Assembly: GCF_027023985.1 (NCBI RefSeq)
Contig: NZ_JALVTW010000015.1
Location: 1 to 64,000 of the forward strand
DNA from: Persephonella sp.
GTDB taxonomy: Bacteria; Aquificota; Aquificia; Aquificales; Hydrogenothermaceae
Length of the DNA stretch: 64,000 nucleotides
Reading direction: 5' to 3'
Shown: positions 5,368 to 20,826 of the stretch, piece after piece
How the letters are laid out: each line of letters opens with the position of its first letter
Numbering within the stretch: position 1 is the stretch's first letter
Position numbers and translations under genes: made by a program
Notes under the pieces: generated by a model
What the model saw: the letters and a program-made list of their open reading frames with translations, nothing else
Databases searched by the model: none
What the model was told of the DNA's origin: nothing

Positions 5368-7410
5368 GTGAAAATAGTTCCTTTGATTTTACTACAAAAA
5401 ATCTGGAAAAGCTTTATTTTCAAGCCCTATCTGGCAAATCTGATTTTTGGCACACTTCTTGAAAAATATCTGATTAAAAAGATTCCAAAAGGGCTAAAAA
5501 TGGAAAAACTTATAAAAGTTTCTCAGGAAAGAAACAAAAGAATAAATAAGATAGAAAAGTTGAAACAGGAGCATACTCCTCAGGAAGCATGGGAAAAACT
5601 TGAATATTATGCACAGCATGGATTTTCTTCTATCCCTGAGCACGATTTGACCTATTTCTTTAAATGCTTTGGGATTTTTTACAGACCTGCAACTCCAGAA
5701 AGATTTATGCTAAGGGTAAGAATCCCCGGTGGAAAGCTAAATTACCAGCAGGCGAAAAAATTAGGAGAAATAGCAAAACAATACGGAAATGATTATATAG
5801 ACCTCACAACCAGAATGCAGGTTGAACTCCGTTATCTAAGGATTGAGGATATTCCCACAGTTTTAAAAGAGCTGGAAAGCGTTGGAATAACAACTTTCCA
5901 AACAGGAGTAGATAACTTCAGGAATATAGTTCAAGACCCATTAGACGGTGTTGCTTTTGATAATGTTATAGAAACATGGGATATTCTTCTTAATATCCAA
6001 AAGATTTTCCTTAAAAATCCAGAATGGATATGCCAGCTTCCAAGGAAGTTTAATATAGGAATATCAGGTTCTTACTCAAACAGATGTAATATCTACGGGC
6101 ATGACGCCTGTTTTATCCTGGCAGAAAAAGATGGAATATACGGCTTCAATGTGTATCTGGGAGGGAAAGTTGGGGCTGTTGCTAGGCCTGCAGGGGTGTT
6201 TTTGACTGGGGGGGAAGTCCCCCTCTTTTTTGAAGCATTAGCCAAAGTTTTCAAAAAATACGGTTTTAAAGACAGCAGAAACAAAAACAGACTCAAATAT
6301 ATGATTGATGCAGTAGGAATGGAAGAAATTATAGACGCTGTCAAACATGAAGCCGGTAGAGATTTTGAAGAAGCAGGAAGAACCCTTACAGAAATGGAGG
6401 GAGGAGAAAAAACAGGAAAAGTTCAGCTAAAAGACGGGACATTTGCAATGCATATGGTTGTCCCTTCTGGAATCTTTTCAGGAACAGCAATGATTGAAGC
6501 TGCAGAAGCTTCAAAAGAGTTTGGAAATGGAGAAATAAGACTCACTGTTACACAAAATCTTTATATACTTGATGTTCCAAAGGAAAACATTTCTAAACTT
6601 TTATCCCTTCCTATTTACCAAAAATATAAAAATATAAACTCTCCTTACTTTAACGACGTTATAGCCTGTGCAGGAACAGAGCATTGTCCATTTGGAGTTA
6701 TTCCTAATAAACCTGACGCAATAGAGGTAGCAGAATATCTAACCCAAAACTATCCTGTTGATCCTTCAGATGCAAAAGTCAGGATGTATTGGTCTGCCTG
6801 TCAAAAAGGCTGTGGTATCCATGGAAATGGAGATATTGGTTTCGTTGGGGTAAAGTTCAAAAAAGATGGAGAAACTACCGTTGGTGTTGATATGTATTAT
6901 GGGGGAACAATGACCGGGGAGCAGGAGGAGGGGAAACTTCTTATTAAATCTATTCCTTTACCAGAAGTTAAGTATTATGTGGAAGAGCTTATAAAAGAAT
7001 ATCTTCGTCTTAAAAAACCAAAAGAAAGCTTTGAAAGGTTCTACAAAAGAGTTTTATCAAAAATATCAAAAGAAGCCCTTAGATTTCTCATTGTCTTTAA
7101 CAATCTCATGAAAAATCAGAATATCAGACTGGAGATAAACGAGCTTCTCTTAAATAAGTCCAGTGAGGAGGAAGAAATTTTTGCCTTTGGATACCAGCTT
7201 TATAGAAAACTAACAGGAAAATCCCCATATACAAGGCCGGATTTACTCCAGATTTATGACGAGCCTGAACCGGAAAAACCATCAAAACTCAATCCTGAAA
7301 TCCCCAAAGGCCTCAGTGAAATCATTTCAAAAATGATTACAAAAAAACCTGAAAAACGATACAAGGTTTTCACAGAAATTGAAGAAGACTTGAAAAAAAT
7401 CTTTACTTAG
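5368..7410 (+). CDS. nirA: Ferredoxin-type nitrite reductase with a C-terminal kinase-like tail
   Basis: Siroheme/[4Fe-4S] enzyme reducing nitrite to ammonium in the cytoplasm. Two nitrite/sulfite reductase half-domains are visible (FMLRVRIPGGKLNY and the GGKVG segment), and the siroheme-cluster cysteines are C434 and C440 (CAGTEHC) and C478 and C482 (ACQKGCG). After the normal end of the enzyme the protein continues for ~85 residues that match the end of a Ser/Thr kinase (from EEIFAFGYQLYRKLTGKSPY to PEKRYKVFTEIEEDL). The start is uncertain: GTG 5368 gives 680 aa with a hydrophobic extension but no good ribosome site and only 24 bp to the divergent gene; ATG 5500, after AAAAGGG, gives 636 aa. 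narG follows after 69 bp. Confidence 0.9.
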   Translation: MKIVPLILLQKIWKSFIFKPYLANLIFGTLLEKYLIKKIPKGLKMEKLIKVSQERNKRINKIEKLKQEHTPQEAWEKLEYYAQHGFSSIPEHDLTYFFKCFGIFYRPATPERFMLRVRIPGGKLNYQQAKKLGEIAKQYGNDYIDLTTRMQVELRYLRIEDIPTVLKELESVGITTFQTGVDNFRNIVQDPLDGVAFDNVIETWDILLNIQKIFLKNPEWICQLPRKFNIGISGSYSNRCNIYGHDACFILAEKDGIYGFNVYLGGKVGAVARPAGVFLTGGEVPLFFEALAKVFKKYGFKDSRNKNRLKYMIDAVGMEEIIDAVKHEAGRDFEEAGRTLTEMEGGEKTGKVQLKDGTFAMHMVVPSGIFSGTAMIEAAEASKEFGNGEIRLTVTQNLYILDVPKENISKLLSLPIYQKYKNINSPYFNDVIACAGTEHCPFGVIPNKPDAIEVAEYLTQNYPVDPSDAKVRMYWSACQKGCGIHGNGDIGFVGVKFKKDGETTVGVDMYYGGTMTGEQEEGKLLIKSIPLPEVKYYVEELIKEYLRLKKPKESFERFYKRVLSKISKEALRFLIVFNNLMKNQNIRLEINELLLNKSSEEEEIFAFGYQLYRKLTGKSPYTRPDLLQIYDEPEPEKPSKLNPEIPKGLSEIISKMITKKPEKRYKVFTEIEEDLKKIFT

Positions 7411-7479
7411 ATCAATGAAAAAAAAAACTTATAAATCTAAAATTAGCCAAAAACTCATTTAAAAGCGGAGGAATATAAA

Positions 7480-10400
7480 ATGAAACGACGGGTTTCCTAT
7501 TTGCTCAAAAAATTTACATCCTTTGCTCCTAAAGAAACATATTCAAATGGACATTCTGCTCTCACAGAGCAGGACAGGACGTGGGAAGACTTTTATAGAA
7601 AGAGATGGCAATATGACAAAAAAGTTAGAACAACACATGGAGTGAACTGCACAGGTTCCTGTAGTTGGTGGGTTCATGTAAAAAATGGACTTGTGACATG
7701 GGAAACCCAGGCTCTTGATTATCCAACTACCGGCCCAGATTTTCCAGAATATGAACCAAGAGGATGCCAGAGAGGAGCTTCATTTTCGTGGTATGTCTAC
7801 AGTCCTTTAAGAGTTAAATATCCTTATGTAAGAAGCGTTCTATTAGAAGCCTGGAGAAAAGCCAAAGAAAGAAATAATGGAAATCCTGTCAAAGCCTGGG
7901 AAGAAATATTAAACGATCCTAAGAAAACAAAAGAATACAAAACTGCAAGAGGCAGAGGAGGTTTTGTAAGAGCAAATTGGGAAGAAGTAAAGGAATTAAT
8001 TGCTTCTCAACTTATATATACAATCAAGAAATATGGTCCTGACAGAATCGCTGGATTTACTCCAATTCCGGCTATGTCAATGTTAAGTTATGCAGCCGGA
8101 GCCAGATTTATATCTCTCTTAGGTGGAACTATGCTTAGCTTTTATGATTGGTATGCAGACTTACCTCCTGCTTCCCCACAAGTATGGGGAGAACAAACAG
8201 ATGTTCCAGAAAGTGGAGATTGGTATAACTCAACTTACATTATTGTTTGGGGTTCAAACATCCCAATGACAAGGACTCCTGATGCCCACTTCTTTTCAGA
8301 GGTTAGATATAGAGGAGCAAAAGTTGTTTCTGTTAGTCCAGATTATGCCGAATATGTAAAATTTGCAGATGAATGGATGCAACTAAATCCTGGAACAGAT
8401 GCTGCTATAGCCCAAGCAATGACCCATGTAATACTAAAGGAGTTTTATGTAGAAAATCCTGAAGAATACTTTATTAGCTATGCCAAGCAGTTTACAGATT
8501 TACCATTTTTAGTAATACTGAACAAAGAAGAAGATGGATTTATAGTTAATAGATTTTTAAGAGCTTCCGATATTGGTAAAAATGTATCAAATGCAGAATG
8601 GAAACTCATTGTTTTAGATGAAGATACAAATCAGTTAGTAATTCCTAATGGAAGTATAGGCTACAGGTGGGAAGATACAGGAAAATGGAATTTAAAAGTT
8701 GAAGATGAAAACGGAAATAAAATAAACCCTACATTAACAATTCTTGGAAGAGAAGATGAAAAAGGATTTGTTAAACTTCCATATTTTGAAGATGATAAAA
8801 AAGGGATTTTAAAAAGAGAAATTCCTGTTAAGAAGATTGAAATAGATGGAAAGGAATATTATCTAACCACAGTTTTTGATCTATTTCTTGCAAATTATGG
8901 GGTCAAAAGGGAAGGATTAGAAGGATATCCATTCTCTTACAATGAAGATGCTCCATATACACCAAAATGGCAGGAAAAAATAACAGGAACTCCTGCTCAT
9001 CAAGTAGAAAGAATTGCAAGAGAATTTGCCCAAAATGCTGCAGAATCAAAAGGTCGTTCTATGATAATAATGGGTGCCGGTATTAATCACTGGTATAATG
9101 CCGATTTAATATACCGTGCTATTCTTAATCTTGTTATTTTAACTGGTTCTCAAGGTAAAAATGGTGGTGGATGGGCTCACTACGTAGGACAAGAAAAAGT
9201 AAGACCTTTTGAAGGTTGGGCTACCCTTGCATTTGCAAGAGACTGGCAAGCACCACCGAGACTCCAAAATGCAACATCATTCTGGTATTTCACAACAGAG
9301 CAATTCAGATACGAGGATAATAATATAGAAAAATTAGCCTCTCCATTAAAAGAGAAAACAAAATATAAACATCCAGCAGATTATATACTTTTAGCTGTAA
9401 GATTAGGATGGTTACCCTTTTATCCTCAATTCAATAAAAATAGTTTAGAACTTGCAGAAGAAGCTAAAAAAGCAAACAAAAATCCAAAAGAATACATTGT
9501 AGAAAAACTAAAAAATGGAGAACTTGAATTTTCTATACAGGATCCAGAAAATCCAGTAAATTTCCCGAGAAGTCTATTTGTATGGAGATCAAATCTTATC
9601 TCAAGCTCTGCAAAAGGACATGAATATTTCCTAAAGCATATGCTGGGAGTAGAAAATACTGGAGTAATGGCAGAATATTCACCATTAAAACCTGAAGAAA
9701 TAAAACTCAGAGAAGATGCACCGGTAGGAAAGCTTGATTTATTCGTTGTTTTAGATTTTAGGATGACAGGTTCTGCATTGTATGCAGACGTTGTTTTGCC
9801 AACTGCTACATGGTATGAAAAAACAGATCTAAACTCAACAGATATGCATCCATTCATACACCCATTGAACAAAGCAGTAGATCCTCTATGGGAATCAAAA
9901 TCTGACTGGCAAATATATAAAGAAATTGCAAAGACATTTTCTCAACTTGCAGAAAAATATTTAAAAGGGGAGTATGAAGATATAGTAACAGTTCCTTTAA
10001 TGCATGATTCTCCAGCAGAAATCTCGCAGCCTTACGGAAAAGTTTTAGATTGGTCAAAAGGAGAAATTGAACCCATTCCCGGAAAAACAATGCCGAATAT
10101 AGCTGTAGTAAAAAGAGATTATACAAAAATTTATGATAAATACATTGCTCTTGGACCAAATGTCTATGAAAAACCTGTGGGAGCTCATGGTTGGAGCTTT
10201 GATGCGAAAGAGGAATATGAATTTTTAAAAACTATGATAGGAACACATAAAGAAGGCATCAATAAAGGAATGCCAAATATAGAAGAAGATGAAAAAGCCG
10301 TAGAGGCTATTCTTACATTATCAACCTGCACAAATGGAAAACCTGCAAATAAAGCGTGGAAATTCGCAGCTAAAAAAACAGGCTTACCAGAAATTGCAAA

Positions 10401-11154
10401 CATAGCAAAAGATAGAGAAAGTGAACACTTTACACTCAAAGAAATCACCGTTCAGCCAAGAGTATCTATATCTACACCAATATTTACAGGAACTACTCAT
10501 TTTGACAGAAGATTTACAGCATTTTCAAACTCAATAGAATACAAAATGCCATTTAGAACACTATCTGGAAGACAAGAACTATTTATAGACCACGAACTAT
10601 TTACAGAAGTAGGGGAAAATTTACCCGTCTATAAACCACCTTTAGTAACAGATCCTTTTGAAAACTGGGAAACTCCTCCAGACGTAAAAGAAAAAACCAT
10701 AAAAGCACGATGGATTACTCCTCATGGAAAATGGCAAATACACTCTACATACTATGACAATCTGATAATGCTAACTTTATTCAGAGGTGGACAGGTAGTA
10801 TGGATAAGTGATGAAGATGCTAAAGAAGCAGGTATACAGGATAATGATTGGGTAGAAGTTTACAATAGAAATGGTGTAGTAGTTGCAAGAGCTGCAGTAA
10901 GTCACAGAATCCCTAAAGGGACTGTTCTAATGTATCATGTTCAAGATAGGAATATACATGTTCCTTTATCTGAAATAACAAATGAAACAGGTGGTAGCCA
11001 TAATGCTCCAACAAAAATCCATATTAAACCAACTTACGCAGTAGGAGGATACGCACAATTAAGTTACTCCTTTAACTACTATGGTCCTACCGGAACACAA
11101 AGTGATTCTGTTGTTTTAATCAAGAAAAAGAAAAAAGTTGAATGGCCTAACTAA
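7480..11154 (+). CDS. narG: Respiratory nitrate reductase alpha subunit
   Basis: Molybdenum bis-MGD catalytic subunit that reduces nitrate to nitrite on the cytoplasmic side of the membrane, 1224 aa, full length. The N-terminal FS0 cluster ligands are His53, Cys57, Cys61 and Cys96 (HGVNCTGSC ... RGCQRG). The Mo-ligand aspartate is D223 in YDWYADLPPASP. Long stretches match the E. coli enzyme, e.g. WGSNIPMTRTPDAHFF and GGGWAHYVGQEK. There is no twin-arginine signal, as expected for the cytoplasm-facing NarG type. The start follows GCGGAGGA. narH begins 18 bp after the stop behind an almost identical leader (ACGGAGGAGTATAAA). Confidence 0.97.
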   Translation: MKRRVSYLLKKFTSFAPKETYSNGHSALTEQDRTWEDFYRKRWQYDKKVRTTHGVNCTGSCSWWVHVKNGLVTWETQALDYPTTGPDFPEYEPRGCQRGASFSWYVYSPLRVKYPYVRSVLLEAWRKAKERNNGNPVKAWEEILNDPKKTKEYKTARGRGGFVRANWEEVKELIASQLIYTIKKYGPDRIAGFTPIPAMSMLSYAAGARFISLLGGTMLSFYDWYADLPPASPQVWGEQTDVPESGDWYNSTYIIVWGSNIPMTRTPDAHFFSEVRYRGAKVVSVSPDYAEYVKFADEWMQLNPGTDAAIAQAMTHVILKEFYVENPEEYFISYAKQFTDLPFLVILNKEEDGFIVNRFLRASDIGKNVSNAEWKLIVLDEDTNQLVIPNGSIGYRWEDTGKWNLKVEDENGNKINPTLTILGREDEKGFVKLPYFEDDKKGILKREIPVKKIEIDGKEYYLTTVFDLFLANYGVKREGLEGYPFSYNEDAPYTPKWQEKITGTPAHQVERIAREFAQNAAESKGRSMIIMGAGINHWYNADLIYRAILNLVILTGSQGKNGGGWAHYVGQEKVRPFEGWATLAFARDWQAPPRLQNATSFWYFTTEQFRYEDNNIEKLASPLKEKTKYKHPADYILLAVRLGWLPFYPQFNKNSLELAEEAKKANKNPKEYIVEKLKNGELEFSIQDPENPVNFPRSLFVWRSNLISSSAKGHEYFLKHMLGVENTGVMAEYSPLKPEEIKLREDAPVGKLDLFVVLDFRMTGSALYADVVLPTATWYEKTDLNSTDMHPFIHPLNKAVDPLWESKSDWQIYKEIAKTFSQLAEKYLKGEYEDIVTVPLMHDSPAEISQPYGKVLDWSKGEIEPIPGKTMPNIAVVKRDYTKIYDKYIALGPNVYEKPVGAHGWSFDAKEEYEFLKTMIGTHKEGINKGMPNIEEDEKAVEAILTLSTCTNGKPANKAWKFAAKKTGLPEIANIAKDRESEHFTLKEITVQPRVSISTPIFTGTTHFDRRFTAFSNSIEYKMPFRTLSGRQELFIDHELFTEVGENLPVYKPPLVTDPFENWETPPDVKEKTIKARWITPHGKWQIHSTYYDNLIMLTLFRGGQVVWISDEDAKEAGIQDNDWVEVYNRNGVVVARAAVSHRIPKGTVLMYHVQDRNIHVPLSEITNETGGSHNAPTKIHIKPTYAVGGYAQLSYSFNYYGPTGTQSDSVVLIKKKKKVEWPN

Positions 11155-11172
11155 AAAACGGAGGAGTATAAA

Positions 11173-12630
11173 ATGAGAGTAAAAGCACAGATAACAATGG
11201 TTTTAAATTTAGATAAATGTATAGGTTGTCACACATGTAGTGTTACCTGCAAAAATACGTGGACTAAAAGAGAAGGTGTTGAATATGTATGGTTTAACAA
11301 CGTAGAAACAAAGCCAGGTGTTGGTTATCCAGTTCAGTGGGAAAATCAAGAAAAATATAAAGGAGGATGGGAATTAAAACCAAATGGGAAATTACAACTA
11401 AAACAAGGTGGTAGACTATTTGAATTCTTAAATATTTTTCATAATCCAAATCTTCCCACTATAGATGATTATTACGAACCCTGGGCATATGATTATGAAC
11501 ATTTGATGAACGCACCCAAACAGAAACATCAGCCAGTGGCAAGGGCAAAATCTTTACTGACAGGAAAGAAAATAGATATAAAATGGGGACCTAACTGGGA
11601 AGATGATTTAGCAGGGGCTCCGGAACATGCAATAAATGATCCCAATATCCAAAAAATGGCCAAAGAAGTTAAGATGAAATTTGAAGAAACCTTCTTTTTC
11701 TATTTGCCAAGACTTTGTGAGCATTGTTTAAATCCGGCCTGCGTGGCCGCATGTCCCTCAGGGGCTATATATAAGAGAAACGAAGATGGAATTGTTTTAG
11801 TAGATCAAGATAGTTGCAGAGGTTGGAGATATTGTATATCTGCATGCCCTTACAAAAAAGTTTACTTTAATTGGGCTACACAAAAAGCAGAAAAATGCAC
11901 TTTTTGTTTTCCCAGAATAGAAGCAGGATTACCAACCATATGTTCTGAAACATGTGTTGGGAAAATAAGATACATTGGAGTAATTCTTTATGATCCTGAT
12001 AAACTTACAGAACTTTTAAATGAAAAAGATGATAAGAAACTTTACGAGAAACAACTTGAAATATTTTTAGATCCAAATGATCCAAAAGTAATAGAACAGG
12101 CTAAAAAAGAAGGAATTCCTGAAAACTATATTGAATATGCTCAAAAATCTCCAGTTTATAAATTAATGGTAAAATACAAAGTTGCTTTATCTTTACATCC
12201 AGAATTTAGAACATTCCCAATGGTTTGGTATGTCCCTCCTATTAGTCCAATTCTCCAGCTTTTTGAGGATAAAAGCTATGATGAATTATTTTCATCCATA
12301 GATGAAATGAGAATCCCTTTAGAGTATCTAGCAAATCTATTAACAGGTGGAAATGTAAAGGCAATAAAAGGAGCAATAAACAGACTTGTTGCAGTTAGAT
12401 ACTACATGAGAGCAAAAGAACTTGGAAAAGAAATAGACACTAAGAAACTTGAAGAAGTAGGATTAACTCCTGAAGGAGCAGAAGAACTCTATAGGATGCT
12501 CGCTATTGCCAAATTTGAAGAAAGATTCGTAATTCCAACAACCAAAAAAGAATTTGAAAGGGACGTTTATAAAGAACAAGGTTTAACGGGCTTTGATTAC
12601 ACACCAGATTGCGATTTCTGTCTTCCATAG
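11173..12630 (+). CDS. narH: Respiratory nitrate reductase beta subunit
   Basis: Iron-sulfur electron-transfer subunit between NarI and NarG, 485 aa. The first ferredoxin motif is C16-x2-C19-x2-C22-x3-C26 (CIGCHTCSVTC). The second set is around CEHCLNPACVAACP, and the third contains CRGWRYC, where Trp replaces a cysteine as in NarH proteins with one [3Fe-4S] centre. CTFCFPRIEAGLP and ETCVGKIRYIG complete the ligands. The C-terminus (YTPDCDFCLP) is extended compared with ferredoxin-like subunits, as in other NarH. It sits 18 bp after narG and 10 bp before narJ in one operon. Confidence 0.96.
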   Translation: MRVKAQITMVLNLDKCIGCHTCSVTCKNTWTKREGVEYVWFNNVETKPGVGYPVQWENQEKYKGGWELKPNGKLQLKQGGRLFEFLNIFHNPNLPTIDDYYEPWAYDYEHLMNAPKQKHQPVARAKSLLTGKKIDIKWGPNWEDDLAGAPEHAINDPNIQKMAKEVKMKFEETFFFYLPRLCEHCLNPACVAACPSGAIYKRNEDGIVLVDQDSCRGWRYCISACPYKKVYFNWATQKAEKCTFCFPRIEAGLPTICSETCVGKIRYIGVILYDPDKLTELLNEKDDKKLYEKQLEIFLDPNDPKVIEQAKKEGIPENYIEYAQKSPVYKLMVKYKVALSLHPEFRTFPMVWYVPPISPILQLFEDKSYDELFSSIDEMRIPLEYLANLLTGGNVKAIKGAINRLVAVRYYMRAKELGKEIDTKKLEEVGLTPEGAEELYRMLAIAKFEERFVIPTTKKEFERDVYKEQGLTGFDYTPDCDFCLP

Positions 12631-12640
12631 GAGAGATAAA

Positions 12641-13150
12641 ATGGATTTTAAAGAAAAAATTGGAACTATTTCTTTACTACTTAGATATCCTGAAAAAGAT
12701 ATTAAAAAAATTGTTGAAGAAATAGATTTATTAGAACTTGAAGATGAAAACATTGCCAAAGTTATAAACTTCTATAAAACAAATGATTTATTTACAATTC
12801 AGCAAGAATATGTAAAAAGCTTTGATTTAAATGAAAAGGCAAGTTTATATCTTACTTATCATAAATTTAGAGATGATCCTAAAAGAGGAAATTATCTGGC
12901 CAGACTAATCAGTTATTACAGAGAAAAAGGATTTGAATTTATTGATAATGAGCTTCCAGATTTTCTCCCTGTAGTTTTAGAGTTTATTTCTTATATAGAC
13001 GAAAATACAGGTTTAAAAGTATTAAAAGCCTTTTCGAAAGAATTAAAGCAAATATATAAAGGGCTTTTAGATATAGATTCAAAATTTACCCCTTTAATTG
13101 AATTCCTCTTAAAAATCACAGAAAATATGGAGGTTAACCAAAATGATTGA
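12641..13150 (+). CDS. narJ: Nitrate reductase assembly chaperone
   Basis: 169 aa, TorD/NarJ-type cytoplasmic chaperone needed for cofactor insertion into NarG; it is not part of the final enzyme. The start is ATG 12641 after AGGAGAG, which trims the longer open frame that overlaps narH. The N-terminus (ISLLLRYPEKDIKKIVEEI) and the central YVKSFDLNEKASLYLTYH motif are typical of NarJ, where the F/YDL-x-E-x2-SLYL sequence is the family signature. It overlaps narI by 8 nt, indicating translational coupling. It is shorter than E. coli NarJ (236 aa). Confidence 0.9.
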   Translation: MDFKEKIGTISLLLRYPEKDIKKIVEEIDLLELEDENIAKVINFYKTNDLFTIQQEYVKSFDLNEKASLYLTYHKFRDDPKRGNYLARLISYYREKGFEFIDNELPDFLPVVLEFISYIDENTGLKVLKAFSKELKQIYKGLLDIDSKFTPLIEFLLKITENMEVNQND

Positions 13151-13835
13151 TTTAGCCAAATACGGATATGATGCAGTCAATCTATTTTTCTGGGTAATTT
13201 TTCCATATATATCCATCACTATATTTTTCATAGGAAATGCATACAGATTTATTACAGATTCTTTTAGCTGGACTTCAAAATCAAGTGAAATTCTTGAAAA
13301 GAAAACTCTTCGGCCTGCAAGTTTATTATTCCATTATGGAATAATATTTGCCTTTTTCGGACATATCATAGGTATCGTCATCCCAAAATCATGGACTGAA
13401 GAGATGGGCATTTCTGAACACACTTATCATTTAATCGCCCTTTCTGCAGGAAGTATTGCTGGAATAATGGTAGTGATAGGTCTCATTCTATTTATTTACC
13501 GAAGATTAACAAACCCAAGACTTTCAGCAATAACAACTACAATGGATTGGATAACTTTGCTACTTTTACTTGTCATTACATCATTAGGCCTAATAAATAC
13601 TATTTTCGTCCAATACGACTACAGAGACACTGTTGCACCATGGTTTAGAGGACTATGGATATTTACCCCTGACTATACTCTTATGGCTGATGTTCCATTT
13701 TTACTTAAACTCCATATATTTCTTGTATTTGTATTAACCGCAATTTTCCCATTCACTAGATTAGTCCATCTTTTAAGTATTCCCTTCAGCTATATATTTA
13801 GAAAACCTGTTATTTATAGGCAAAGATGTCCGTAA
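13143..13835 (+). CDS. narI: Respiratory nitrate reductase gamma subunit (cytochrome b)
   Basis: Diheme b membrane subunit that oxidises quinol and passes electrons to NarH, 230 aa with five hydrophobic segments. Axial heme histidines are visible in conserved spacing: H64 and H74 (LFHYG ... FFGHIIG, 10 apart) and H191 and H209 (KLHIF ... RLVHLL, 18 apart), the same spacing as in E. coli NarI. The N-terminus is outside-facing by analogy. It starts inside the end of narJ and is followed by narK after 26 bp. All four histidines are present, so a functional cytochrome is expected. Confidence 0.95.
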   Translation: MIDLAKYGYDAVNLFFWVIFPYISITIFFIGNAYRFITDSFSWTSKSSEILEKKTLRPASLLFHYGIIFAFFGHIIGIVIPKSWTEEMGISEHTYHLIALSAGSIAGIMVVIGLILFIYRRLTNPRLSAITTTMDWITLLLLLVITSLGLINTIFVQYDYRDTVAPWFRGLWIFTPDYTLMADVPFLLKLHIFLVFVLTAIFPFTRLVHLLSIPFSYIFRKPVIYRQRCP

Positions 13836-13861
13836 AACATAAATAAAGGAGGGCTTAGAGA

Positions 13862-15196
13862 ATGGAGAAAAAAATAGAGTATAACGGAAAAGTAATTGAG
13901 ATTACAGGAAGTCCCCAAATAGGACTAATAATGGCCACCTGGGGATTTTTCATCGGGTTTGCAGCTGTTTCCCTTTATGGCCCTGTTGCAAAAAATCTTA
14001 AAGAGATTTTAGGTTTATCCGGTTTTTTAATGGGACTGCTTGTCGCTGCCCCAAATCTGACAGGTTCATTACTTCGGATACCATTTGCAGCATGGGTTGA
14101 TAAAGTAGGAGGCAAAATTCCTCTCGCAACCCTTTTAATACTTGCTGTTATTGGAATGGGAGGATTATCAACCCTTTTATATTTATATTATCCCCATCTC
14201 CAACCATGGATGTATTGGTTAATACTATTATTTGGATTTTTAAGCGGATGTGGAATTGCTACTTTTTCTGTTGGTATTGCCCAAACAGCATACTGGTTTC
14301 CTGAAAGTAAGCAAGGTTCAGCTTTAGGAATATATGCAGGTGTTGGAAATCTTGCTCCCGGATTATTTGGAATGATACTTCCGTTTGCCCTTAAAACAAT
14401 AGGATTGACATGGTCATATATAGCATGGTTTGGATTTTTACTTGTTGGAACTGTGATATACATCTTACTGGCTAAAGATGCCCCATACTTTCAGCTTATA
14501 AAAGCTGGTGTTCCACATAACAAAGCCGTTGAACTGGCTAAACAGCTTGGGCAGGAATTAATCCCAACAGGTAGTTTAATAGATTCTCTTAAAAACTCAG
14601 CAAGACATATACAAACTTGGGCACTGGTTGCTTTGTATTTTGTTTCTTTCGGTGGATTTCTAGCATTAACAGGCTGGTTTATAGTTTTCTGGGTTCAAAG
14701 CTATAATATAGAACTTAGAAAAGCAGGACTTTTAATGGCATTTGGATTTTCACTGCTGGCTTCGGTGATTAGAATTTTTGGAGGATGGCTTTCTGACAAA
14801 ATAGGTGGAGAACTTGTTTCTATAATGTCTTTTACCCTAACCCTTATAGGTGCAATTGTTATTATGATAGCAGGTAATCATAGCTTTGGTTTATCTCTTA
14901 CCGGAGAGATTCTTATGGGATCAGGCATGGGAATTGCAAACGGCGCAGTATTTAAACTGGTTCCCAAATATGTTCCCCATGCTACAGGTGGAGCTGCCGG
15001 ATGGGTGGGTGGACTTGGGGCTTTCGGTGGATTTGTAGTTCCTCCAATACTTGGGATATTTGTCCAAAATTACGGAGTTATTGGTTACTCTAAAGGTTTT
15101 ATTGTATACGTTATTTTGGCATTAATTGCAATTATAATTTCTATTATGTTATGGAAATCCTATGGTAAAAAAATAAACAAACCTATTGAAGATTAA
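13862..15196 (+). CDS. narK: Nitrate/nitrite transporter, MFS (NarK type)
   Basis: 444 aa, 12 predicted membrane segments, major facilitator superfamily, nitrate/nitrite porter branch. Signatures include GFFIGFAAVSLYGPVAKNL, the loop 2-3 motif WVDKVGGKIPL, and glycine-rich nitrate signature helices (TFSVGIAQTAYWFPESKQG and GGWLSDKIGG). The start follows AAAGGAGGGC. Between narI and narB, it can feed nitrate to both the respiratory and assimilatory enzymes and may also export nitrite, but direction and coupling ion cannot be read from the sequence. Confidence 0.94.
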   Translation: MEKKIEYNGKVIEITGSPQIGLIMATWGFFIGFAAVSLYGPVAKNLKEILGLSGFLMGLLVAAPNLTGSLLRIPFAAWVDKVGGKIPLATLLILAVIGMGGLSTLLYLYYPHLQPWMYWLILLFGFLSGCGIATFSVGIAQTAYWFPESKQGSALGIYAGVGNLAPGLFGMILPFALKTIGLTWSYIAWFGFLLVGTVIYILLAKDAPYFQLIKAGVPHNKAVELAKQLGQELIPTGSLIDSLKNSARHIQTWALVALYFVSFGGFLALTGWFIVFWVQSYNIELRKAGLLMAFGFSLLASVIRIFGGWLSDKIGGELVSIMSFTLTLIGAIVIMIAGNHSFGLSLTGEILMGSGMGIANGAVFKLVPKYVPHATGGAAGWVGGLGAFGGFVVPPILGIFVQNYGVIGYSKGFIVYVILALIAIIISIMLWKSYGKKINKPIED

Positions 15197-15206
15197 AGAG
15201 GCACTT

Positions 15207-17444
15207 ATGGAGAAAATAACGGCTCAATGTCCATACTGTGGAGTAGGCTGTGGGCTTGAGATATTTGAGGATAAAAAAGGCAGGATAAAAATAAAAGGAG
15301 ATAAAGAGCACCCTGCCACAAAAGGAGATTTATGTCTTAAACCAATTCCACTTCCAAAAGTAATGGATATTGGCCGTGTCCCTGCACCTTTATACAGGGA
15401 AAATAAAAGGGACAAATTCAGGGAAATAACATGGGAAGAAGCAATAAAAATAATTGCGCAAAAGCTAAAGGAAAATCAGCCTGACGAAAATTATTTTTAC
15501 ATCTCCGGACAGTTAACAACAGAAGATAGTTATGTAATAAACAAATTTGTAAAAGGATTCATAGGCACAAACAATATAGATGCAAATTCAAGGCTTTGTA
15601 TGGCTTCTGCAGTTATGGGATATAAAATGGCCTTTGGCTCAGATGGCCCTCCTGGAAGCTATGAGGATATAGATGATGCGGATGCTTTTGTGTTTGCCGG
15701 TTCAAATGCAGCATGGACTCATCCGGTTCTATTCAAAAGGGTTTTAAACAGAAGAAAAGAATATCCAGAAGCAAAAATTATAGTTATTGACCCTGTTTAT
15801 ACTGCAACAGCAGAAAAAGCTGATATATGGATTGATATTAAGCCAGGAACTGACACAGTTCTGTTTAACAGTATTCTTTATCTTTTGAATAAAAAAGGCT
15901 GGCTTGATTATGAGTTTATTGGCAAGCATACAGAGGGATTTTCACAGGCTATAAAAGAAGCAGAAAAGTATCCACCGGAAATAGCTGCCAAGATATGTGA
16001 AATAAAACCAAGCCTGATTTATAAACTGGCAGAAATATATGCCTTTAGTAAAAAGGTTATTTCTTTCTGGACAATGGGATTTAATCAGTCCTCTAATGGA
16101 ACAATGAAAAATCTGGCATTAATAAATGTTCATCTTGCAACTGGAAGAATAAATGAAAAAGGTTGCCCTTTTTCCCTTACAGGTCAGCCAAACGCAATGG
16201 GCGGCAGGGAAGTCGGTTATCTGGTAAATGGTCTTCCCGGATACAGAGATGTTAGGAATCCAGAAGACAAAGCATTTATGGAAAAATTCTGGGGTTTACC
16301 AGAAGGCAGCATAAAAGATAAGCCAGGAATAACAATAGTGGAAGCTATGGACAGTATGATAAACGGAGATATAAAACTCCTGTGGATTGTCTGCACAAAC
16401 CCCGCTGTTACAATGCCAAATCTGAATAAGTTCTGGAGAGCTTTAAGAAATACATTTGTAATTGTTCAGGATGCATATTTAACTGACTCTGTTGATTATG
16501 CAAATCTGGTTTTACCGGCTTCCCAATGGGGAGAAAAAGAAGGAGTTATGACCAGCTCAGATAGGACAATTACCTACAACAAACCTTTCAGACAACCACC
16601 TCAGCAATGCAAACATGACTGGCAGATATTCTGTGAAGTAGCAAAAGAAATGGGCTGGGAAAAACAGTTTTCCTATGAAAATTCCAGAGAAATATTTGAT
16701 GAATATAAACAAACCACAAAAGGAAGATTATGTGATATTTCTGACTGGAGCTATGAAGACCTGCCAAAACAATGGGGTGGAAAATGGCTTTACAAGGATA
16801 AGAAATTCCCTACACCAACAGGAAGAGCAAAATTTAATCCTGCAGTTTACTCAGGAGCTTCTGATAACACAGAATATCCTTATTCCTTTGTTTTGACAAC
16901 AGGAAGAACCAAAAAACAATGGCACACAATGACCAGAACAGGTAAGGCAATGGAACTGGTAAGAGGAGAAGAAGAGCCATTTGTTATGCTCAATGAAGAA
17001 GATGCACTGGAACTGGGAATATTTGACAACGACTATATAAATATCAAATCAACAAGGGGACAGATTTATATAAAAGCAAAAACAGGAAAAATAAAAAGGG
17101 GAGTTGTATTTGCACCATTTGGTTATGGAAAAATCTATCACTTCCCTACAAATATAACAGTAAGTGATGCAATAGACCCTATATCAAAAGAGCCGGAGCT
17201 AAAATTCTCAGCAGTGTTTATAAAACCAAGAAAGAAAAGAATATACAAGCTATCAGATGAGGTTTATCAAAAGGTAAAAGAAACATACCCGGAAGTAGAA
17301 AGATTTTTAGATGATGTTTTGGAAAATAGTTTTACTTCGCTATCAGAAGCAGATATAAAAAATATAAAACCTGACTTTCTAAAGCAGCTTTCACAGGGAA
17401 TTAAAGAACTAATGGATATTTTTATAAACAGACCTGCCGACTGA
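15207..17444 (+). CDS. narB: Assimilatory nitrate reductase with globin-like C-terminal extension
   Basis: Cytoplasmic molybdenum enzyme (NarB/NasA type) reducing nitrate for nitrogen assimilation with ferredoxin-like donors. N-terminal [4Fe-4S] ligands are C8, C11, C15 and C43 (CPYCGVGC ... GDLCLKP), and the Mo-ligand cysteine is C131 in NSRLCMASAV. ATG 15207 was chosen over the upstream TTG because AAAGAGG lies at proper distance. The normal enzyme ends near KPRKKRIY. Residues ~682-745 (from LSDEVYQKVKETYPEV) look like the first half of a globin fold; the frame stops at TGA 17442-17444 and the globin-like sequence continues beyond it in the same frame. It follows narK after 10 bp. Confidence 0.93.
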   Translation: MEKITAQCPYCGVGCGLEIFEDKKGRIKIKGDKEHPATKGDLCLKPIPLPKVMDIGRVPAPLYRENKRDKFREITWEEAIKIIAQKLKENQPDENYFYISGQLTTEDSYVINKFVKGFIGTNNIDANSRLCMASAVMGYKMAFGSDGPPGSYEDIDDADAFVFAGSNAAWTHPVLFKRVLNRRKEYPEAKIIVIDPVYTATAEKADIWIDIKPGTDTVLFNSILYLLNKKGWLDYEFIGKHTEGFSQAIKEAEKYPPEIAAKICEIKPSLIYKLAEIYAFSKKVISFWTMGFNQSSNGTMKNLALINVHLATGRINEKGCPFSLTGQPNAMGGREVGYLVNGLPGYRDVRNPEDKAFMEKFWGLPEGSIKDKPGITIVEAMDSMINGDIKLLWIVCTNPAVTMPNLNKFWRALRNTFVIVQDAYLTDSVDYANLVLPASQWGEKEGVMTSSDRTITYNKPFRQPPQQCKHDWQIFCEVAKEMGWEKQFSYENSREIFDEYKQTTKGRLCDISDWSYEDLPKQWGGKWLYKDKKFPTPTGRAKFNPAVYSGASDNTEYPYSFVLTTGRTKKQWHTMTRTGKAMELVRGEEEPFVMLNEEDALELGIFDNDYINIKSTRGQIYIKAKTGKIKRGVVFAPFGYGKIYHFPTNITVSDAIDPISKEPELKFSAVFIKPRKKRIYKLSDEVYQKVKETYPEVERFLDDVLENSFTSLSEADIKNIKPDFLKQLSQGIKELMDIFINRPAD

Positions 17445-19243: not shown

Positions 19244-20080
19244 ATGAAAAAGCTAATAACACTGTTTGTTTTTGCTACTGTGATGAGTTCCTGTTTACAA
19301 ATCACCATAGGCGATAATGACGAAAACAATAATGAAAAACCAAATCCAAGAGTTTTAACAGTTAATACAACATGGTATTGGCAGTTAAACGGTAGCCTCA
19401 GAACAGATATACCTGCTGACTTATATGATGTTGACCTGTTTGATACACCTTCCGAGACTATAGCTAAGCTTAAAAAGCAGGGGAAAATAGTCATCTGTTA
19501 TTTCAGTGCAGGCAGTTATGAGGAATGGCGACCTGATGCATACAAATTTCCGCCAGAAGCAATAGGTAATTCTCTTGATGACTGGGCTGGTGAATACTGG
19601 ATAGATATAAGAAATCCCGAAATCTGGAATATTATGAGAGACAGACTTGACCTTGCCGTTGCAAAAGGATGCGATGGAGTTGAGCCGGATAATGTAGATG
19701 GATACACAAATGATACAGGTTTTAATTTAAGCTACAATGACCAGCTGAGATACAACAGATTTCTTGCAAATGAAGCTAAAAGTAGAGGCCTTTTAATTGG
19801 GCTAAAAAATGACCTTGAACAGATACCTGACCTTATTAATTATTTTGATTTTGCTTTAAATGAAGAATGCCATAAATATAATGAGTGTGATTTATTAGAA
19901 CCGTTTATAAGACAGGGTAAGCCTGTTTTCAATGCCGAGTATGATGATATATATATTTATGATGAAAGAGCCTTCAGAAATTTATGTAATGACGCTAAAA
20001 AAAGAAATTTCAGGACAAATGTCTATCCTGTTGAGCTTGATGGTAGTTTTGTAAAAAGCTGTGATTACGGGGAGTATTGA
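19244..20080 (+). CDS. GH114-type endo-alpha-1,4-polygalactosaminidase, lipoprotein
   Basis: 278 aa. The N-terminus is a lipoprotein signal (MKKLITLFVFATVMSSC, lipid-modified Cys17), then a polar linker and a TIM-barrel domain of the GH114 family: TTWYWQLNG, VICYFSAGSYEEWRPD, YWIDIRNPEIW, KGCDGVEPDNVDGY and GLKNDLEQI are typical blocks, with acidic catalytic candidates in CDGVEPDNVD. Family members cleave galactosaminogalactan-like polysaccharides, so a role in own or foreign exopolysaccharide turnover at the envelope is likely. Its stop TGA overlaps the ATG of a PP2C phosphatase gene, an unusual partner. Confidence 0.88.
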   Translation: MKKLITLFVFATVMSSCLQITIGDNDENNNEKPNPRVLTVNTTWYWQLNGSLRTDIPADLYDVDLFDTPSETIAKLKKQGKIVICYFSAGSYEEWRPDAYKFPPEAIGNSLDDWAGEYWIDIRNPEIWNIMRDRLDLAVAKGCDGVEPDNVDGYTNDTGFNLSYNDQLRYNRFLANEAKSRGLLIGLKNDLEQIPDLINYFDFALNEECHKYNECDLLEPFIRQGKPVFNAEYDDIYIYDERAFRNLCNDAKKRNFRTNVYPVELDGSFVKSCDYGEY

Positions 20081-20826
20081 TGATAAAAGTGGCATTCTGT
20101 ATGAACAGGGGATTAAGAGGATATCAGCAGGATTGCATTTATATAGATGGAGAGATTTATCAAGTAGATTTTATGAAATGTCCCCGGGAAAAAATGTTAG
20201 ATAAAGATGAGGGAATATTTGCTGTATGCGATGGTATGGGAGGACTTGCTGAAGGGGATAAGGCAAGCAAATTTGTGTGTGAAAAGTTAAAGAAGATTAA
20301 TATAGATTTTTCCGTTAACGCAGTTGAAGAAGCCCTTTTTCAGATACAAAAAAAGTTTGAAAAAACAGACATAAAATGGAGCGGAACTACCGTTGCCGGA
20401 GTTTATTTAAAAGGAAATAAATCCATAGTATTTAATGCAGGAGACAGCAGGGTTTATAAGTATACTTCTGAAGGGCTTGTTTATCTATCCCATGACCACA
20501 GTTATGTTCAGGAGCTTGTGGATGAGGGAATTATCTCTTATAAAGAGGCTTTTTATCATCCGGAAAGATATGTAGTTACCTTTGGAATTGGTGATGTGTT
20601 TTCTGAAGAGTGGAAAAGTGGTAAAAAACCATATATAGTTGAGGATGAACTAAAAGAAAATGAGCTTTATATAATATGTTCAGATGGTCTGTCAGATTAT
20701 TTAACAGATGAGGAGATATACTATCACCTGTATCCTGAACCTTTTGAAAATTTTCCTATACTAATTGAAATGCTTGAAAAGGTAAAGAGTGATAACTACT
20801 CAATAATTCTTGTAAAATCAGAATAG
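20080..20826 (+). CDS. PP2C-type Ser/Thr protein phosphatase
   Basis: 248 aa from ATG 20080 (a TTG one codon earlier is also possible). PP2C/PPM motifs are in order: GYQQDCIYID, AVCDGMGGLAEGDKAS, FNAGDSRVYKY, LSHDHSYVQELVDEGII and CSDGLSDYLTDEEI, giving the Mn/Mg-binding aspartates. No membrane segment is present. Such enzymes oppose Hanks-type Ser/Thr kinases. No complete kinase lies in the window, but a kinase C-lobe is fused to NirA. It is translationally coupled to the GH114 gene (shared TGATG) and convergent with the dehydrogenase gene, with no gap. Confidence 0.92.
   Translation: MIKVAFCMNRGLRGYQQDCIYIDGEIYQVDFMKCPREKMLDKDEGIFAVCDGMGGLAEGDKASKFVCEKLKKINIDFSVNAVEEALFQIQKKFEKTDIKWSGTTVAGVYLKGNKSIVFNAGDSRVYKYTSEGLVYLSHDHSYVQELVDEGIISYKEAFYHPERYVVTFGIGDVFSEEWKSGKKPYIVEDELKENELYIICSDGLSDYLTDEEIYYHLYPEPFENFPILIEMLEKVKSDNYSIILVKSE

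Follow-up and report, generated by a model that had tools for sequence, protein, structure and literature searches.

The window, the 64,000-nucleotide stretch of a Persephonella sp. contig (NZ_JALVTW010000015.1) analysed here, carries nirA, a gene for a NirA-type siroheme nitrite reductase, together with downstream genes for nitrate reduction and transport (Table 1). Close relatives have the gene order nirA-narK-nasA (locus L112), and in the window (5500-17444) a membrane-type narGHJI is interposed in this order. The nasA-type gene has an in-frame TGA at 17442-17444 where relative G006 has a tryptophan (PAD-W-DRANLL), and beyond this codon the reading frame runs on without a stop, with continued similarity, over about 80 residues; the gene may be truncated or suppressed, or the TGA may be a base error. 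The stretch 20-1986 holds an element of IS200/IS605 type, named from sequence only, whose ORFs are a small transposase and a TnpB-like protein, along with the start of a second TnpB-like ORF on the opposite strand.

Table 1. Features of nirA and the adjacent nitrate genes in the window
Feature	Position	Strand	Basis
nirA ORF	5368-7410	+	open reading frame
NirA body, siroheme/4Fe-4S nitrite reductase, residues 1-534, including the family's ordinary C-terminal helices	5500..7101	+	Pfam, Cys motif, Foldseek
Variable linker, residues 535-553	7102..7158	+	mean pairwise identity 0.45
Kinase-derived tail, residues 554-636, spanning helices F through I of a PknB-like C-lobe	7159-7407	+	profiles, AF2, VIA-align
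Helix F segment, EEEEIFxxGxQLYRKxTGKxPY, residues 556-577	7165..7230	+	26/26 sequences
Helix G-replacing segment, T/S-RPNILEIYDEPxPEKPSKL, residues 578-597	7231..7290	+	column identity, DSSP of both models
Helices H and I with subdomain XI Arg (R620, PEKRY) and VFTEIE motif, residues 598-636	7291..7407	+	
narG	7480-11154	+	ORF, named by sequence reading
narH	11173-12630	+	ORF, named by sequence reading
narJ	12593-13150	+	ORF, Pfam
narI	13143-13835	+	ORF, named by sequence reading
narK	13862-15196	+	ORF, Pfam MFS transporter
nasA-type nitrate reductase	15186-17444	+	ORF, Pfam molybdopterin enzyme

Translation of nirA most likely starts at ATG 5500, since relatives share the N-terminus MEKLxKVSQERNKR; this conserved start gives a NirA of 636 amino acids. 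The body matches Pfam NIR_SIR (1.8e-38) and NIR_SIR_ferr (6.5e-35), each in two copies above the curated cut-off, and its cluster cysteines (C390-x5-C396 and C434-x3-C438) are invariant family-wide. The top-scoring NCBIfam family for the body is the ferredoxin-nitrite reductase equivalog NF007125, yet the score of 347.6 bits does not reach the cut-off of 594, and the protein is therefore described as NirA-type and not as certified for the equivalog. Foldseek searches with the full-length model place tobacco and spinach NiR and Mycobacterium tuberculosis NirA best, over 516-541 columns; sulfite reductases are also among the first matches, and PknB follows afterwards, with 86-103 columns in its best rows. 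The enzyme thus resembles NirA-type siroheme nitrite reductases (plant NiR, 2akj and 3b0g; M. tuberculosis NirA, 1zj8) in its whole body fold, its 4Fe-4S/siroheme Cys motif, and a gene context of nitrate transport and reduction. This context is the sole support for nitrite as the substrate and ammonium as the product. Unlike these enzymes, which stop after the ordinary C-terminal helices, NirA in the window continues into an 80-residue kinase-like tail. In one relative (G008), nirA is broken into two overlapping frames.

The first-pass annotation had read the end of NirA, at 7177-7410, as a protein kinase C-lobe. The location holds, as does the similarity itself, which is borne out by NCBIfam, PDB profiles, and the predicted structure; the exact limits do not, the boundaries being slightly wider (7159-7407). 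The profile search that it proposed returns kinases: the C-terminal 121 amino acids match NCBIfam PknB_PASTA at 6e-11 and PknD at 2e-11. With the NirA C-terminus as a single sequence, a PDB search retrieves M. tuberculosis PknB chains at 2.4e-6. A profile of 26 NirA tails (alignment A2) reaches 2.3e-7 against the same database, with 44 distinct sequences at E<=0.01, each one a kinase or a pseudokinase. The motifs quoted in the annotation (EEIFAFGYQLYRKLTGKSPY, LNPEIPKGLSEIISKMI, and PEKRY) are present, and its reading of the subdomain IX aspartate of helix αF as changed to glutamate is upheld by Glu559, which all 26 sequences share. R620 preserves the arginine of subdomain XI and is invariant along with V623, F624, and E626. 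Pfam Pkinase matches the tail weakly (E 0.001, under the cut-off) and over profile positions 172-254 of 263 only, which corresponds to subdomains IX to XI only.

This sub-cut-off Pfam match would suit a chance or convergent likeness between a helical extension and a kinase C-lobe. A candidate second kinase fragment (G002, C85) with a similarly weak Pkinase match (E 0.0035) turned out to encode a flagellar protein resembling FliG, and Pkinase E values near 0.003 are therefore uninformative on their own. Chance likeness is contradicted, however, by independent profile, pairwise, and structural evidence, all of which chooses PknB-type kinases for the same stretch, making it the least probable explanation considered here.

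No Gly-rich loop, VAIK lysine, αC glutamate, HRD, DFG, APE, or N-lobe is found upstream of the tail, where the sequence is that of nitrite reductase. The restricted Pkinase match agrees with the earlier statement that N-lobe, HRD, and DFG are missing there. Because the ATP-binding and catalytic subdomains are absent, the tail cannot be a kinase; a pseudokinase has a bilobal fold with lost catalytic residues, and the tail comprises about one third of the kinase fold. It shares helices F, H, and I, the TGK-PY and PEKRY motifs, and 25-28% identity with PknB/Stk1-type Hanks Ser/Thr kinases. Unlike them, it lacks the N-lobe, catalytic loop, Mg2+ loop, and APE, carries glutamate for the αF aspartate, and has a shortened helix G with a nearly invariant, family-specific segment in its place. 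Pseudokinase protein-binding scaffolds such as MLKL, PEAK3, and Rv3910 are likewise kinase-derived and non-catalytic, with a plausible protein-contact role, but they keep both lobes of the fold, whereas the tail corresponds to about the last third. A split kinase with its N-lobe in a separate ORF was rejected by a Pkinase scan of the window's own genome, which returns the tail, ORFs of 528 and 209 amino acids that match weakly and only in part (E 0.01 and 4e-4), and a further weak stretch at 12695-12844 that falls within narJ.

Structure prediction, also proposed in the first pass, yields a tail with the kinase C-lobe arrangement of helices F to I. The AlphaFold model of full-length NirA, computed with 25 homologues, has pLDDT >90 over most of the tail, and AF2 of the tail alone gives pLDDT 93.1 and pTM 0.82; this confidence in a kinase fold is not independent of the homology, as AlphaFold has already seen many kinases. 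VIA-align superimposes the tail model on PknB (2fum, residues 193-277) with a Z-score of 10.6 and an rmsd of 2.4 Å over 79 of 83 residues. All 50 VIA-align matches listed are kinases or pseudokinases, and Foldseek with the tail alone gives only kinases among the matches listed. Helix G is cut to about one turn by DSSP in both models. Sequence and models together show the tail as a compact helical domain, predicted to fold autonomously, with no ATP-binding or phosphotransfer parts, and they confirm, at the level of profiles and predicted structure, its derivation from the C-terminal third (subdomains IX-XI) of a PknB-like Ser/Thr kinase.

The tail is present in all 29 Hydrogenothermaceae genomes with a readable NirA C-terminal end, which span nine genera and include two (G021 and G108) with the C-terminal end only, at a contig start. 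When the tail profile is run across the 136 genomes of the phylum, each of those 29 has a single strong match (E 1e-34 to 1e-47), always terminal on NirA and never free or on another protein. NirA enzymes of the same type among 61 relatives (66-100% identity) all extend to the tail end. NirA-type enzymes of neighbouring families have no tail, their matches stopping near residue 520, and plant and Mycobacterium NirA have none either; the tail is therefore a lineage-specific added domain of Hydrogenothermaceae and not the ordinary NirA C-terminus. The alternative that all relatives carry the same tail is thus true within the family but not of neighbouring families, plants, or Mycobacterium. A scan of ~85,000 species genomes, which relied on two short peptide patterns that more divergent tails could escape, finds 22 loci, of which 21 are titled Aquificota, Hydrogenothermaceae, or its genera and one is a fragmentary proteobacterial match. 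No description of such a NirA tail was found in the open papers searched.

Other matches of the tail profile in the phylum are weak (E 3e-10 and above), and the five such loci that were read encode complete kinases of 270-423 amino acids, at least three of them adjoining a PP2C gene. The top non-NirA match is a 423-amino-acid kinase of an Aquificaceae-level relative (G083; E 2.9e-10), which is at most a candidate donor of the tail, as ubiquitous PknB-like kinases score about equally. Many of the tailless NirA-type enzymes of neighbouring families are NADH-type fusions: in Aquificaceae-level relatives (L026-L030, L104) an N-terminal NAD(P)H oxidoreductase is fused to the NirA-like enzyme, giving a NirB-like protein of about 950 amino acids with no kinase tail.

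Mean pairwise identity is 0.79 in the NirA body, 0.66 in its ordinary C-terminal helices, and 0.69 in the tail, in which 18 of 83 columns are invariant. Ten close pairs give tail dN values of 0.01-0.11 versus dS values of 0.09-1.8, and by this codon-level estimate the tail is under strong purifying selection. Distances in the tail and the body are correlated (Mantel r 0.55; 0 of 2000 permutations), indicating that the tail has been inherited together with the body, and their similar G+C contents (0.361 and 0.371, respectively) agree with an old joining. Within the tail, mean column identity is 0.83 in the helix G-replacing segment, 0.85 in the helix F core, and 0.65 in helix H. A neutral, functionless fusion relic that has not been lost yet would be expected to look like a partial domain with no catalytic parts, as the tail does, but the intact state of all readable orthologues, the invariant columns, and the low dN/dS contradict it and leave it extremely improbable. 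As a description of the present state, the earlier suggestion of a relic of a deletion fails in view of the same intactness and purifying selection, and no cognate kinase adjoins nirA in the flanks that were read.

These flanks hold trpD-like, narK or narG, nasA, and birA genes, so the separate neighbouring kinase that had been envisaged is not found there. The window's own genome contains no full Hanks kinase above the Pfam cut-off, and the tail therefore does not serve a resident one. A complete Hanks kinase occurs in a minority of 41 Hydrogenothermaceae genomes, and ORFs fetched around these full kinases have no match to the tail profile. Kinase-like matches in such genomes call for caution, as they can be parts of a nitrite reductase.

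Because the tail is universal in readable orthologues, conserved, and without a full Hanks kinase to serve, it is read here as a fixed domain fusion. That it has been kept as a functional module without catalysis has good support; contact with another chain would be only the likeliest form that this function takes. The reading that joins these points, an ancestral fusion in Hydrogenothermaceae whose product is retained through contact as a functional, non-catalytic structural or interaction module, is given a probability of roughly 0.55. In the Hydrogenothermaceae ancestor, nirA would have been fused with part of a gene for a PknB-like kinase, a fragment encoding helices F to I only. The homology, distribution, and vertical co-inheritance of this fragment are observed, and from them we infer a single ancestral joining. 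The fragment would fold alone and now form a permanent non-catalytic domain of NirA, in which the old substrate-docking face, the helix G segment, may have been rebuilt as the nearly invariant RPNILEIYDEPxPEKPSKL surface. This surface is a candidate for a fixed protein contact, either in a NirA homo-oligomer or with a nitrate-assimilation partner (an electron donor or NasA/NarK).

The helix G-replacing segment equals the fold core in conservation, a sign that it makes a fixed contact, be it to a partner or to the body of NirA. The contact idea draws on this conservation and, by analogy, on kinases, in which helix G is a known protein-docking element, for example in PKR with eIF2alpha (PMC11556786). 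The conservation could equally be explained by packing on NirA itself, and the lower conservation of the tail than of the catalytic body (0.69 versus 0.79) counts against contact. Of the two origins offered in the first-pass annotation, the reused interaction module is the better one, with the contact itself still putative.

The main rival to contact is an intramolecular cap, in which the tail lies against the NirA body and, without the participation of any other protein, makes it more stable, for instance to heat, or gives the donor-binding face its shape. Such a cap is possible but less probable than contact: every member comes from a thermophilic family, the fusion to NirA is constant in these genomes, and the tail is predicted to be ordered in the full-length model. 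Other thermophilic Aquificales, however, have NirA without a tail, with matches ending near residue 520, and the variable linker is equally compatible with a packed and a tethered domain. A further and rather doubtful possibility is that the helix F-I third is an autonomous unit reused as an assembly platform, clamping NirA to a nitrate-reducing or electron-donating partner, with nitrite handed on and not released.

The tail is a clean natural case of a kinase-domain fragment, not a whole pseudokinase, that has become fixed throughout a bacterial family as a stable domain of a metabolic enzyme. One prediction from it is that helices F to I of the kinase C-lobe can fold and bind alone, and it may show how NirA is organised in the chemolithoautotrophs of the Hydrogenothermaceae.

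The tail could also have a regulatory role, with a full Ser/Thr kinase or a downstream PP2C docking on it and placing NirA under phosphorylation control. PknB kinases form dimers by way of their own domains (PMC6428115), and a PP2C-type phosphatase gene (20077-20826; Pfam PP2C 1.7e-8) lies 12.7 kb downstream of nirA, adjoining a GH114 gene; in several members of the genus, a PP2C gene lies within about 7-12 kb of nirA. This regulatory role is nevertheless quite improbable, given the scarcity of Hanks kinases described above and the lack of a PP2C homologue at E<=1e-6 in several tailed genomes (e.g., G014, G019, G024, G030, and G109). A link between the phosphatase and the tail was rejected, as PP2C occurrence does not track tail occurrence, and the PP2C of the window is an orphan phosphatase, as its genome has no full Hanks kinase. 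One Aquificaceae-level relative (L100, 1589-3054) encodes a 278-amino-acid Ser/Thr kinase and a PP2C beside a membrane protein resembling NnrS and a hemerythrin-like protein, in a setting possibly related to nitrosative stress.
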